In this document: in pieces, positions 4,543 to 18,873 of the stretch | How the letters are laid out: each line of letters opens with the position of its first letter | Numbering within the stretch: the stretch's first letter is position 1 | Origin: an uncultured Erysipelotrichaceae bacterium | GTDB lineage: Bacteria > Bacillota_I > Bacilli_A > Erysipelotrichales > Erysipelotrichaceae | Reading direction: 5' to 3' | Assembly: GCA_902766435.1 (NCBI GenBank) | Contig: CACXDM010000092.1 | Span: forward strand, 1 to 35,077 | DNA length: 35,077 nucleotides | Translations under genes and position numbers: made by a program | Notes under the pieces: model-generated | Seen by the model: the letters and a program-made list of their open reading frames with translations, nothing else | Database searches by the model: none | Told to the model about the DNA's origin: nothing

Positions 4543-4566
4543 AAATGCCCGCTTTGACGGGCATTT
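4543..4566. terminator. Bidirectional terminator between rarA and the convergent gene
   Basis: AAATGCCCG (4543-4551) and CGGGCATTT (4558-4566) are perfect nine-base arms around CTTTGA. The A and T runs on both flanks let it work for rarA on the plus strand and the hydrolase-like gene on the minus strand, whose stop overlaps the hairpin edge. Confidence 0.88.
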
Positions 4567-5908
4567 ATTGTGTGATTCCGATGTCTCTGAGCATCTGCAG
4601 AAATTTTCCGTGAACGACACCGTATGTATTGTATTCCGTGTCAAAGCTGATGCCAATCAGGTTCTTGTTGTTGGCCGGCGCATCCAGGATATCCGTTTCA
4701 TGGTATATGCCGCGCTCTGTAAGCAGGTCATCCATCCGGTGTGCCTGAACAGTATAGGTTCCCGTGTTGCCGTCCGCGATCAGCAGGGGCGGGAAGTCAT
4801 CTGTGATATATGCCGTACAGTCTGCTCTTTTGGCATCTTTGCTTTCATGAAGGGAGAAGCAGCTGTAATAGGAACGTGACTGCTGATACATGATGAAGTC
4901 CGTGAGGGGATAGTTTGTTTCATCACTGTACTGCGGCTGATAGCAGGCAGATACAAGATAGGCTGCCTTCAGCTGTTCTTTTGCGACTGGTGTAAGACCG
5001 GTTTCGGAAGCGTATGCGGGATTGTATGCGGCACAGAGATACTGGATGACGATTTCGGCTCCGGCTCCTGTTCCGCCGCAGACGATACTGTTTGTACTGG
5101 TCTGCAGCTCATCCTGATGGTCCTGAAGAAAGAGAAAGAGACGCTCTGCCTGGATTAACGGTACGGGATACCGGTAATCAGGAGCCAGGGCATAATCAGC
5201 GGATACAATGTCATATCCTTCCTTCAGCAGCGCCGCAAAGAACTGCTGTGTGCGGTCTTCGCTGTCTCTGCTTCCGCTGATGAAACCTCCGCCATGGAAC
5301 CAGACGAACAAAGGGGCGTTTTCCTTACCTGAGCGCATCAGGTTAAATACGCTGTTGGGATATTCCGTATCATACTGTATGTTCCGTATGATCTGAAAGT
5401 TACCGGCATATTCCTCTTCCGTTACCGGAGCGTATTCCGTGATGTTTGCGGCTTGCGGGTTCATTCTGCGCACCATATCATCCGGCTGAAATGACAGCAG
5501 GGAAAGCCGGACAAAGCCGTACATGAGTAAGGTCATCATCCCGAGATGAAGAAGCCAGTATATCTTGTCATCCGTAAAACTCCGTTTCCAGACAGAGATA
5601 TTCAGCTTCAGATACCGGATGAGTTCCGCCGTTCCGTATATTGAAGACAGAATACATGAAGCGTACCATGCGTACTCACTTCCCATGATCAGCCATACGG
5701 CAGCCGTGATGAGGCAGAGCAGTGAAAGAACGGAAAGCAGCTTCCGGTGTTCCGGTTTCTGACGGTAATACAGAAAGAGATTAATCAGACAAAGAATGAT
5801 ATTCAGTGTCATCAGTCCCTTACGGTGGGATATAAGAAAAAGGCTGCAGACGGCGGAAAACCATACTGCGGCCGCTATATGTACTGTTGTGGTGTTTTTC
5901 CGTTTCAT
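4565..5908 (-). CDS. Membrane protein with an inactive-looking alpha/beta hydrolase domain (HSL-like)
   Basis: A 447-residue protein. The N-terminal third has about five hydrophobic helices (near 8-26, 31-48, 57-76, 80-100, 118-140). Residues 160-447 form an alpha/beta hydrolase of the hormone-sensitive lipase/esterase family: the oxyanion motif HGGG is at 205-208 and DYALAPDYRYP at 238-248. The nucleophile elbow, normally GDSAG, reads GTGAG at 279-283, so the catalytic Ser is Gly281. The usual acid Asp in GNADP reads GNTGT, with Gly383. Only the His (VVH433) remains. A classical esterase reaction is therefore unlikely; ligand binding or sensing is inference. The gene starts 16 bases after the DAC-domain gene, on the same strand. 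The ATG at 5908 has no ribosome site and sits just after TGGTATAAT. An alternative ATG at 5935 would overlap the upstream stop. Confidence 0.78.
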   Translation of the reverse strand: MKRKNTTTVHIAAAVWFSAVCSLFLISHRKGLMTLNIILCLINLFLYYRQKPEHRKLLSVLSLLCLITAAVWLIMGSEYAWYASCILSSIYGTAELIRYLKLNISVWKRSFTDDKIYWLLHLGMMTLLMYGFVRLSLLSFQPDDMVRRMNPQAANITEYAPVTEEEYAGNFQIIRNIQYDTEYPNSVFNLMRSGKENAPLFVWFHGGGFISGSRDSEDRTQQFFAALLKEGYDIVSADYALAPDYRYPVPLIQAERLFLFLQDHQDELQTSTNSIVCGGTGAGAEIVIQYLCAAYNPAYASETGLTPVAKEQLKAAYLVSACYQPQYSDETNYPLTDFIMYQQSRSYYSCFSLHESKDAKRADCTAYITDDFPPLLIADGNTGTYTVQAHRMDDLLTERGIYHETDILDAPANNKNLIGISFDTEYNTYGVVHGKFLQMLRDIGITQ

Positions 5909-5924: not shown

Positions 5925-7271
5925 TTACCTGACATTGATGCGGTAAATATGATCCTTTGTGACGGAGTCCACTGTTCCGTCTTCCGAGACAACGATGCCG
6001 ACGAAGTATTCGTCCAGCTGGGCACGGCGGTTGATGTAGTTGACGGTGGAATTGTATCTGGCGCCGCGGGCAGGTGAGCCTCTGGTTACGGCATCACCGT
6101 CAAGAATCGCTCCGATGCATCTGCAGCGGCAGTCGGTATCCATCAGGACAGCCCCGTCAATAGAGGTAATATAGGAAATCAGTTCACTCTTTTCATAGAG
6201 ATTCACGGTATTGATTCCCGTGGCTACCTTTGCATTGCACAGACGTTCTGATTCGGCTTCGATCATTTCGGGATTGCCGATAATCATGATTGTGCCGTGT
6301 CTTTGTCTGGCGGCGGCTTCAATCACGCTTTCCAGCATATTCAGCTTTTCCTCGGTAAGTGAACCGGAGAATTCGCCGAGATACTTCTTGGCGGAGAAAT
6401 TCCGGCTTCTGTCGGTGTGAATATGATAATGGGCATTGTAATAGGAGATCTTGCCGGTGCCTTCATAGGTGATTGTAAAGGCAAGATTGTCCCACATTCG
6501 GATCTTGCATTCCGTCTGATATGGTTCGTCGAATGTCAGACCGCGGATTCTGCCGGCTTCATTGATGACGATTGCGAAATGCTTGTCCGAGAGTTCTACG
6601 AGTTTCCGGATCTGACGGAGGTTTTCGATGGAGAACGGTACGGAGTCACTGAATACGATATCCAGTCCCTTGCGGGCAGTACGTTTTCCGGCTGCCGAAT
6701 CAAAGCGCGGGACATAGATGGTGCAGTCGATCGCATCACCCTCATATGTCATGGCGGACAGGGTCAGAATGAAATTGATGTCGATCCGGTAGAACCCGTA
6801 AAAGAATTCGGATACACCGCTCGAGATCATCATCTCATACATATGGGACATTCTGATCCGGCGGATACCGTATATCTCGGTCTGCCGGAAGAATTCCGTG
6901 CAGAATGCGCTGGTAATAAACTGCAGGGGAGAAATGCCGTCCTCACGGAAATCAAATACGGCGAAGACATCATCGGCATACCATGTATAGGAGTTTTCGA
7001 AGTTTTCGATCATCGAAAGATCCTTCACGGTACATTCCTTCAGCTTATTTGATTTTCTGGTTACGGTAATGATCGGATAACCGTTTTCCATTCCTTCTTC
7101 CTGCGTGGTCGGGACCGCGGAAAAATGGATGTTGAAATCGGGCACGGTTTTGGGTTCATTATAAAGATTACGCAGAAGGGCAGCGTACATGTCACGGATC
7201 TTGAAAAAAAGATCTTCTTTTGTCAAAGACTCTCTGCCGAGAAGGTTGCTCCAATAATCTGTCATAAACAT
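5925..7271 (-). CDS. Protein with C-terminal divergent diadenylate cyclase (DAC/DisA_N) domain
   Basis: A 448-residue protein. Its last 160 or so residues match the DAC fold that makes or binds c-di-AMP: a helix ending RQRHGTIMIIG, then DGAVLMD (near 372) matching the DGA motif, RGARYNST (near 402) at the place of the GTRHRAA motif, and the closing strand VVSEDGTV as in the classical VVSEE-G. The substitution of RHR by RYN is divergent, so synthesis is not assured. The first 280 residues are unrecognised, with aromatic-rich beta-strand segments and no membrane helix; in this family such regions are usually sensory. Two starts six bases apart (7271 and 7265) are possible. GGAAAG lies four bases before the first, which I chose. 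It heads a two-gene operon with the membrane pseudo-hydrolase. Confidence 0.8.
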   Translation of the reverse strand: MFMTDYWSNLLGRESLTKEDLFFKIRDMYAALLRNLYNEPKTVPDFNIHFSAVPTTQEEGMENGYPIITVTRKSNKLKECTVKDLSMIENFENSYTWYADDVFAVFDFREDGISPLQFITSAFCTEFFRQTEIYGIRRIRMSHMYEMMISSGVSEFFYGFYRIDINFILTLSAMTYEGDAIDCTIYVPRFDSAAGKRTARKGLDIVFSDSVPFSIENLRQIRKLVELSDKHFAIVINEAGRIRGLTFDEPYQTECKIRMWDNLAFTITYEGTGKISYYNAHYHIHTDRSRNFSAKKYLGEFSGSLTEEKLNMLESVIEAAARQRHGTIMIIGNPEMIEAESERLCNAKVATGINTVNLYEKSELISYITSIDGAVLMDTDCRCRCIGAILDGDAVTRGSPARGARYNSTVNYINRRAQLDEYFVGIVVSEDGTVDSVTKDHIYRINVR

Positions 7272-7287
7272 TACTCTTTCCGCTTCT

Positions 7288-7296
7288 ATTCTAGCA
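7288..7296 (-). promoter_or_regulatory. Extended -10 promoter of the DAC-domain gene
   Basis: On the minus strand TGCTAGAAT forms an extended -10, with transcription predicted to begin about 10-16 bases before the two possible ATGs. The -35 region is weak (TCGCCT at a 17-base spacing). Confidence 0.4.
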
Positions 7297-7353
7297 TACA
7301 GACAGCTTTCAGGCGAAAAGCATCGTAAACATTGATGATGCAATCATAAATCT

Positions 7354-8651: not shown

Positions 8652-8685
8652 GGCATAACCGGCATTATGTTGGTTATGCCTTTTT
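8652..8685 (+). terminator. Terminator after the HAD/XRE pair
   Basis: GGCATAACC (8652-8660) pairs with GGTTATGCC (8672-8680) with an 11-base loop, followed by TTTTT. It closes the plus-strand unit 62 bases after the XRE stop. Confidence 0.85.
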
Positions 8686-8903
8686 ATCTGCGCCCAATGA
8701 ACGTTCAATCTTCCGGGCCTGTATTTGTTCATCATATGAGCGGCCACAGCGCAGCCTGCCGGAATAATTCCGGTCAGGGAAGTGGATTTCTTCACTTTCC
8801 CGTGATTGAATATAGGGCGTTGGAAGAAACGCATTATTCAATGCAGGAGCACTATGACTGTTCCATATGCCGATTGGCCGGAACATCACGCGACCCGGCT
8901 GCA
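8686..8903. other. Stretch without a recognisable gene
   Basis: About 220 bases between the terminator and the recognisable GH1 remnant. The minus-strand frame stays open here, but its translation (for example WNSHSAPALNN) does not resemble the missing C-terminal half of a GH1 enzyme or any other family I know. It is probably scrambled or decayed sequence left from the same gene. Confidence 0.4.
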
Positions 8904-9575
8904 GAAGCAGGAAGGGGGAATAGTGACCGCGTGCCTGTACTTCAACATAGTAGTACTTCTGCAGCATTGCCTTCTGGGCATTCAGCACATCATGGGGATC
9001 CGGTGAAGCGGGATATACACCGTTCATACCGATCATACAGCCGATCATTGCGTCATGGTCAATCTCATGACATGCCTTGACTGCCAGAGCGGAAGCGACC
9101 AGCTCGTGGTGAGCGGAAGTATACCTCAGCTTTTCGATATCGTCTCCCTCATTGACCAGTACGGCGCCTTCCTGTACGAGGTGATGCGCGCCCATCTTGA
9201 CGAATTCAGCCTGGTTGTTGATTTCGTTGAATGTCATCCAGTATTTGACTTTGCCCTTGTATCTTTCGAAACATGTTCTTGCATACTTCTCAAAGAAGCC
9301 GATGCATCTTCTGTCCATGAATCCGTTGTACTTGTCAGCCAGATGGTAGGGCATTTCGAAGTGGGACAGGTGATGACAGGTTCGATGCCGAGGTGGTTCG
9401 GGTAGTCTTCACCTTCGAGTACGCCTCTTGTGATGCGGCGCGGTGTCTTTGTGACGTTGTCGCCGGCAGTCATGACGTCAGCGATGGAAATACCCTTTCC
9501 GTCAACGTCCCAGGCACCTTCTGCCTGATGAGCGGCGATGACGACGCCCCACAAAAAGTCTTTTCTGAAACCTAT
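8904..9575 (-). pseudogene. Decayed GH1 6-phospho-beta-glucosidase
   Basis: Remnant of a family 1 glycosidase, which splits phosphorylated beta-glucosides taken up by a PTS. Recognisable pieces in order are [27 protein letters not shown], then [22 protein letters not shown] (with the acid/base Glu of the NEI motif) and QKYYYVEVQARGHY. Four lesions are visible. The start codon is ATA (9573-9575) although a good AGGAGAAA ribosome site remains. YPNH is joined directly to GIEPVIT at about 9390, where family members carry roughly 60 more residues. One base is missing at about 9368, shifting the frame between EPVIT and SHFEM. The C-terminal half with the nucleophile Glu is absent. It stands alone, with no PTS gene beside it. 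Confidence 0.88.
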
Positions 9576-17941: not shown

Positions 17942-17973
17942 TCCGGGGAGTAGAATAATACGGGAGTTTGAAT

Positions 17974-18873
17974 ATGGAAATATACAGTCGTTTGGAAGAA
18001 ATACCTTCCGGCAGCGCTTCGGAAAAGCTGACACCGGGGTGTCTGGTTCTGGAAGGCGGCGCATGGCGCGGTTTATATACACAGGGTGTTCTCGATGTAT
18101 TCATGGAGAATGATCTGAACATACAGACGGTGATCGGCACAAGCGCCGGCGCCATGGCAGGCATGAGCTATGTGTCAGGTCAGATCGGCAGAGCTGCCAG
18201 ATTCAATCTGAGACACCGTCATGACCGGCATTATGTCGGGGTAGGTGCACTGTTGGAAGATCACGGGATCACCGGCTTCAGCTATCTGTTCCGGATACTG
18301 AAGGAAGAAGATCCGATCAATGAGGAACGCTTCTTTGATCCGGCAAGAAGATTTGTCGTTACTGCCACGAATATCGAAACGGGTGAAACAGAATACTTTG
18401 ACCGTGATGCATGTGACATTGAAAAGGCAGTACAGGCTTCCGCTACGGTGCCGTATGTATCCGAAGCTGTATGGATCGGCGATAAGAGATATCTTGACGG
18501 AGGGATCGGTGTCAAGATTCCATATCAGTGGGCGCTGGATCAGGGATTTGAAAAGATCCTTGTCATCCGTACAAGAGACAGGAATTTCCGTAAGCCGGTG
18601 CACCGTCCGCTCGGTCTTACAAGAAGGGAATACAGACACTATCCTCTGCTGAAAAAGGATCTGATGGAGGAAGCGCCCCGCTACAATGTTCTGGTTGACA
18701 ATCTGAATCTTCTGGAGGAGCAGGGAAGACTGAAAGTGCTCGCACCGAGCAGACCTGTCGACATCCGCCGCTTTGAAGGTGACATGGAAGTGCTGGGGGA
18801 TATTTACTTCCTCGGCCGCAGGGACGCACTGGATCATCTGGATGAGATCAGAGCATATTTCGGTGGCCGGTAA
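17974..18873 (+). CDS. Patatin-like phospholipase (YjjU-type)
   Basis: A 299-residue patatin-like lipid acyl hydrolase. The oxyanion motif is LEGGAWRGLYTQG (about 26-38), the nucleophile Ser57 lies in GTSAGA, and the catalytic Asp (near 175) is in YLDGGIG. The C-terminal 100 residues, with RRDALDHLDEI at the end, resemble the YjjU branch found across Firmicutes and enterics. It would act as an esterase or phospholipase at the cytoplasmic side of the membrane; it has no signal peptide. The ATG at 17974 is chosen with GGGAG seven bases upstream; a TTG two codons earlier is also possible. It lies 32 bases behind the helicase gene with no terminator, so the two are probably cotranscribed. Confidence 0.92.
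   Translation: MEIYSRLEEIPSGSASEKLTPGCLVLEGGAWRGLYTQGVLDVFMENDLNIQTVIGTSAGAMAGMSYVSGQIGRAARFNLRHRHDRHYVGVGALLEDHGITGFSYLFRILKEEDPINEERFFDPARRFVVTATNIETGETEYFDRDACDIEKAVQASATVPYVSEAVWIGDKRYLDGGIGVKIPYQWALDQGFEKILVIRTRDRNFRKPVHRPLGLTRREYRHYPLLKKDLMEEAPRYNVLVDNLNLLEEQGRLKVLAPSRPVDIRRFEGDMEVLGDIYFLGRRDALDHLDEIRAYFGGR

Follow-up and report, generated by a model that had tools for sequence, protein, structure and literature searches.

The window analysed in the current study is a stretch of DNA of 35,077 nucleotides from an uncultured Erysipelotrichaceae bacterium (assembly GCA_902766435.1, contig CACXDM010000092.1). On its reverse strand, at positions 5925–7271, it carries a gene for a protein of 448 amino acids in which a DACNH domain directly precedes a C-terminal diadenylate cyclase (DAC) domain. 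The reading frame is open throughout from 5925 to 7343, and an extension to the TTG at 7343 was not supported. Since the homologues start at the equivalent of the motif M-x-[ND]-[YF]-W, the start codon is either the ATG at 7271 or that at 7265; the spacing of the Shine-Dalgarno sequence GGAAAGAG is best for the latter, which would give a protein of 446 amino acids. From the N-terminus onwards, the protein consists of a domain without Pfam family that is a candidate sensor part (residues 1–157; 6801–7271), the DACNH domain (residues ~158–285; 6417–6800), and the DAC domain (residues 301–448; 5928–6371), the last of these delimited by Pfam and by a structural model.

On the evidence of the model, the C-terminal residues 301–448 have a DAC fold. 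The Pfam family DAC (PF02457) matches residues 317–439 at 29.4 bits (cut-off 27). In an AlphaFold2 model of the whole protein, built from 29 aligned relatives (mean predicted local distance difference test score, pLDDT, of 86; predicted template modelling score, pTM, of 0.65), residues 301–448 match approximately 40 solved DAC entries, the best with a Z score of 13.5 and a root-mean-square deviation (rmsd) of 2.8 over 132 residues. Solved CdaA, CdaM, DisA, and CdaS reach Z 11–13.5 against these residues, while unrelated chains stay at Z ≤4.5 against the whole-protein model. The original prediction, based on the DNA letters and their translations, had proposed a DAC fold from the DGA motif and the VVSEDGTV strand, naming DisA_N as the structure for comparison; both motifs are present, and DisA is among the structural matches. 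Besides, the NCBIfam model NF053872 (DS2_3_antiphage) matches residues 192–459 of the 472-residue frame, i.e., 168–435 of the 448-residue protein (E 1.4e-37), with a score of 129 bits that falls far short of the equivalog cut-off of 630 bits. A search of the PDB by sequence and PADLOC gave no match for the protein.

The active site of the DAC domain departs from the canonical one in a conserved manner. The segment R-G-A-R-Y-N-S (residues 402–408; 6048–6068) replaces x-G-T-R-H-R-A, and RGARYNST aligns with x-G-T-R-H-R-A-A of the canonical CdaA encoded elsewhere in the same genome. Within the RHR motif, the first arginine is kept (R405), the histidine is changed to tyrosine or phenylalanine (here Y406), and the second arginine to asparagine (N407), with a new invariant arginine (R402) directly before the kept Gly-x-Arg. 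This substitution had already been noticed in the original prediction, yet it proves to be a signature conserved throughout the family, the DAC of the anti-phage system DS-2 included, rather than a private oddity of this protein. In an alignment of 39 homologues from Bacillota, Bacteroidota, Pseudomonadota, and Planctomycetota, R-G-[AS]-R-[FYL]-N is present in every sequence (as R-L-N in one relative), so that R-[FYL]-N stands in place of the canonical RHR in all of them. The DGA motif (residues 372–374; 6150–6158) and SE(E/D) are kept in comparison with CdaA of the same genome, S-E-D (residues 429–431; 5979–5987) being the counterpart of the S-E-E(-T-G) motif. The residues invariant across the 39 homologues are D372, G373, G387, D391, G392, R402, G403, R405, N407, Y412, S429, and D431, and most of them coincide with a position of the canonical active-site motifs or are adjacent to one. 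The segment I389-L390-D391-G392 (6096–6107) aligns with Tyr187-Leu188-Pro189 of the Listeria CdaA, where the main-chain atoms of Leu188 bind the adenine on which Tyr187 stacks (PMC10167629); the position of Tyr187 is occupied by isoleucine in 38 of the 39 homologues (I389 here). Overall, the protein resembles CdaA and DisA in its fold, DGA motif, first arginine of RHR, and SE motif, but differs from them in having R-[FY]-N for RHR, isoleucine for Tyr187, an invariant Asp-Gly after the base-reading leucine, and an additional DACNH domain. The ratio of non-synonymous to synonymous substitution rates (dN/dS) is 0.03–0.13 in six close pairs, and this, together with the occurrence of the altered motif in all homologues, argues that the change is not decay. 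Considering the kept first arginine, the altered motif, and the invariant residues, we conclude from the sequences that the putative active site is re-made rather than lost.

The N-terminal 280 residues had been described as matching no family. This still applies to the first ~157 residues, while residues ~158–285 correspond to the DACNH domain. The Pfam family DACNH (PF21750, "probable sensor") matches residues 167–246 at 24.4 bits, below the cut-off of 27, and the profile is found at the same position in 12 of 12 relatives of the first alignment (best E 9.6e-10), the window copy alone remaining under the cut-off. The domain shares its invariant residues with members scoring over that cut-off: E177, R222, and K223 are found in all 39 homologues, and R219 is arginine or lysine in all, the motif R219..R222-K223..E226 lying on a helix encoded at 6594–6617. 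When residues 1–290 were folded alone (pLDDT 90.5, pTM 0.88), residues ~156–284 resembled DACs with Z 6.3–8.1 over 98–148 aligned residues (rmsd mostly ~3), these DAC entries all belonging to one family; the top 38 matches are all DACs and the next one, the first unrelated entry, has a Z of 4.5. The two best Foldseek matches of the domain are DisA structures (probabilities 0.72 and 0.80, E 0.1–0.14). The model thus suggests that DACNH is a probable degenerate second DAC fold, a pseudo-DAC without DGA or RHR, and because of this resemblance the chain may be a tandem of a pseudo-DAC and a DAC. Residues 14–135 have a weak GAF-like resemblance (Z ~4.5 to PDE6C and phytochrome chains), within the range of chance, and a GAF domain is not claimed at this score. 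The N-terminus was also not assigned to DACNG (PF21752, "probable sensor"), for which Pfam gave no match and hhalign no signal above the reversed control, although a very distant homology is possible. A literature search for DACNH and DACNV, which did not cover the main survey of DAC architectures, found no paper using these names.

Among characterised proteins, the closest relative is the DAC of the E. coli DS-2 system (strain 361, locus L100, 6931–8676), with 27% identity over residues 207–439. It carries SRGSRYNS and has in common with the window protein the order of DACNH and DAC, the motif R-G-[AS]-R-Y-N, the invariant D391-G392, and R222-K223. The DS-2 DAC, on the other hand, has a DACNG domain at its N-terminus and an extension at its C-terminus, and is encoded in an operon with a phospholipase and a CD-NTase, whereas the window protein has an N-terminus that is unrelated or diverged beyond recognition, no extension, and no partner from a cyclic-oligonucleotide-based anti-phage signalling system (CBASS). 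Phospholipase, CD-NTase, and DAC genes occur together in Citrobacter, Gluconobacter, and E. coli (L063, L067, and L100), and the E. coli locus, annotated as three DS-2 proteins, adjoins a type II CBASS. Co-location with CBASS has been reported for 15 of 30 homologues (PMC13092281). In the current study, we have also detected two other effectors, each accompanied by a CD-NTase: Cap15/2TM beside a relative (L102) and 4TM beside a DAC of Priestia (L068). These extend the effectors next to DACNH-DAC genes beyond the phospholipase. The three effector types beside distant relatives thus indicate that the association with CBASS is independent of the effector. In a further genome of the Bacilli (G213; L104, 5683–7665), the gene immediately upstream of the DACNH-DAC gene encodes a Cap15 effector. 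The contig also carries E1/E2 and JAB genes, but a CD-NTase was not detected in that assembly; this locus is a possible CBASS variant with the DAC as signal maker.

The picture is different in the Erysipelotrichaceae genus of the window: the SMODS model, which was not checked on the DS-2 cyclase, found no cyclase in any of 36 genomes, and CBASS_cyclase_b found none in the 22 genomes tested. Neither a CBASS effector nor a CD-NTase was found among the genes beside the window gene. A CBASS system in this genome was therefore rejected; as the assembly is a draft metagenome (88% complete, 3.4% contamination), this absence weighs less than it would in finished genomes. The gene itself occurs in 10 of the 36 genomes, the window's own included, two of which carry it twice, and is absent from 24 genomes of a sister family of the same order. 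A profile search of genome contigs returned 36 loci, mostly from rumen and gut Erysipelotrichaceae (Solobacterium or uncultured) and otherwise from Eubacterium, Lachnospiraceae, Clostridia, and Planctomycetota, whereas a single-protein search of the same contigs gave no match. Two copies (L020 and L039) belong to Erysipelotrichaceae bacterium NK3D112, a relative that can be cultured. A wider profile search found the family only in the window's own genome among 392 of the Bacillota and in 2 of 296 genomes of the class, which points to a sporadic distribution. The proteins from Erysipelotrichaceae fall into a single group (support 89/98). A phage origin was rejected, as the gene was found in none of the annotated phages and only distant relatives were found, on two viral contigs.

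We propose, with a probability of roughly one half, that the window gene encodes a nucleotide enzyme with a DAC fold, a member of the DACNH-DAC family to which the third gene of DS-2 belongs, and that it is vertically maintained outside CBASS in this gut and rumen genus. Judged from its sequence, the protein is most likely a working dinucleotide-type enzyme, and the strictly conserved change of the active site suggests that it may work on a different substrate or product. We lean towards a functional site because of the selection on the putative active site and because DS-2 no longer defends once two residues of its DAC that are predicted to be catalytic have been mutated (PMC13092281). In the proposed mechanism, the N-terminal domain would sense a signal, and DACNH would pack against a DAC domain, either that of its own chain or a partner's, in an arrangement like the face-to-face dimer of DACs. 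The DACNH residues R219, R222, and K223 could then supply the basic charge that replaces the lost histidine and arginine of RHR, while D372 with S429/E430/D431 would bind the metal and the enzyme would join two nucleotides. The enzyme may read another base and hence make a product other than cyclic di-AMP (c-di-AMP), since Tyr187 is replaced by isoleucine and an invariant Asp-Gly follows the base-reading residue.

Several points weigh against this proposal. Two of the three RHR residues are replaced, and in the DacA of M. tuberculosis a change of RHR to AAA abolishes both ATP binding and activity (PMC3328451). We found no report of activity in the literature for any DACNH-DAC member. The homology between DACNH and DAC is at the level of the fold only, and Z scores of 7–8 can be reached by unrelated folds. 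A profile comparison of DACNH with canonical DACs failed; one of DACNH with the DAC domain beat its reversed controls (P 0.031 versus 0.41–0.51), but in an implausible register. The model, with its whole-chain pTM of 0.65, does not fix the placing of DACNH relative to DAC.

The main rival of the enzyme is a receptor, which we consider a possibility of lesser weight. Here the pocket of the DAC domain would have given up joining nucleotides and would instead bind a nucleotide or a dinucleotide, e.g., the c-di-AMP of CdaA or, in relatives, a CBASS signal, and pass the signal to the N-terminal part or to a partner. The loss of the histidine and second arginine in a retained fold, the replacement of the adenine-stacking Tyr187, and the presence of a canonical CdaA in the genome would all fit such a role, as would the usual position of the relatives next to a CD-NTase, an enzyme already making a signal that the protein could sense. 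However, D372, S429, E/D430, and D431, which are of the metal-binding and catalytic type, are strictly conserved although binding alone does not clearly need them, and the relative in G213 has a Cap15 effector as its neighbour in an assembly where no CD-NTase was found. The requirement for two predicted catalytic residues in DS-2 also speaks for an enzyme, albeit it is compatible with binding. It seems unlikely that the protein is a second, ordinary synthase of c-di-AMP whose motif has drifted but is still equivalent. The fold, DGA, the first arginine of RHR, SE(E/D), and the adenine-reading leucine are those of such an enzyme, CdaA reads adenine by main-chain atoms (PMC10167629), and several relatives are annotated as diadenylate cyclase in RefSeq/PLSDB; nonetheless, the altered motif is fixed in four phyla and differs at positions that canonical DACs need to bind ATP, Tyr187, called crucial for the activity of CdaA, is replaced, and the invariant D391-G392 takes the place of the residues after Leu188. 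The patchy occurrence in the genus would be expected of a decayed, non-functional relic, but this explanation is hardly credible given the low dN/dS, the lack of inner stops in 12 search hits, and the invariant active-site residues; the dN/dS and the 35-odd relatives in independent assemblies led us to reject a relic or a sequencing artefact.

A more specific form of the enzyme proposal, which we regard as speculative and rather improbable, is that of a single-chain pseudo-DAC/DAC tandem making a dinucleotide other than c-di-AMP, with DACNH as the catalytic-support half of a DAC dimer. It would form a stand-alone signalling system related to the CBASS cyclases, kept outside CBASS and beside ordinary c-di-AMP signalling.

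Next to the Erysipelotrichaceae members lie housekeeping genes, and each subgroup has its own recurring set: pyrE and rpsB (L019, L023, L027, L030), an RpiR regulator with an FtsH-like gene (L018, L020, L025, L028, L031), or proB and others (L036, L038, L039, L043), RpiR being named by Pfam and the others from their sequences. Downstream in the window, a gene for a membrane-anchored alpha/beta hydrolase (Abhydrolase_3/BD-FAE; 4565–5908, reverse strand) begins with an ATG at 5908, 16 bases past the stop of the DACNH-DAC gene, and may be co-transcribed with it; an operon function was not deduced from it, as it has no counterpart near the genes of the relatives. An open frame of 211 codons runs antisense to the DACNH-DAC gene (6417–7052, forward strand), with similar frames in 13 related loci, and is probably a by-product of the conservation of the coding strand. 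A patatin-like phospholipase with DUF6363 (17968–18873, forward strand), ~10 kb from the gene, is probably unrelated to the DS-2 CBASS phospholipase. A GH1 6-phospho-beta-glucosidase-like gene (8674–9554, reverse strand) reads as broken into two frames (8674–9354 and 9234–9554), and a GH1 gene that appears intact lies directly upstream of a relative (L017, 6386–7888). Elsewhere, an IMG/VR contig encodes a DACNH-DAC protein of 865 residues among phage-like genes, with a long C-terminal extension resembling TPR repeats (L101, 4609–7206), and a PIN_12 domain gene overlaps the end of a Planctomycetota DACNH-DAC gene (L048, 2887–4035).

DS-2 cannot defend against phages without its DAC, but we found no report of the DAC's product or ligand. 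As the same active site is kept outside CBASS, its role can be studied apart from a CD-NTase, with the conserved changes R-G-x-R-[FY]-N and L-D-G and the R-K of DACNH as precise targets for mutation and the DAC-like fold of DACNH as a concrete mechanism to examine. Should the product be something other than c-di-AMP, the whole DACNH-DAC family would be wrongly annotated as diadenylate cyclases, and if the tandem proposal is true, DACNH, which is filed as a sensor domain, would instead support catalysis.
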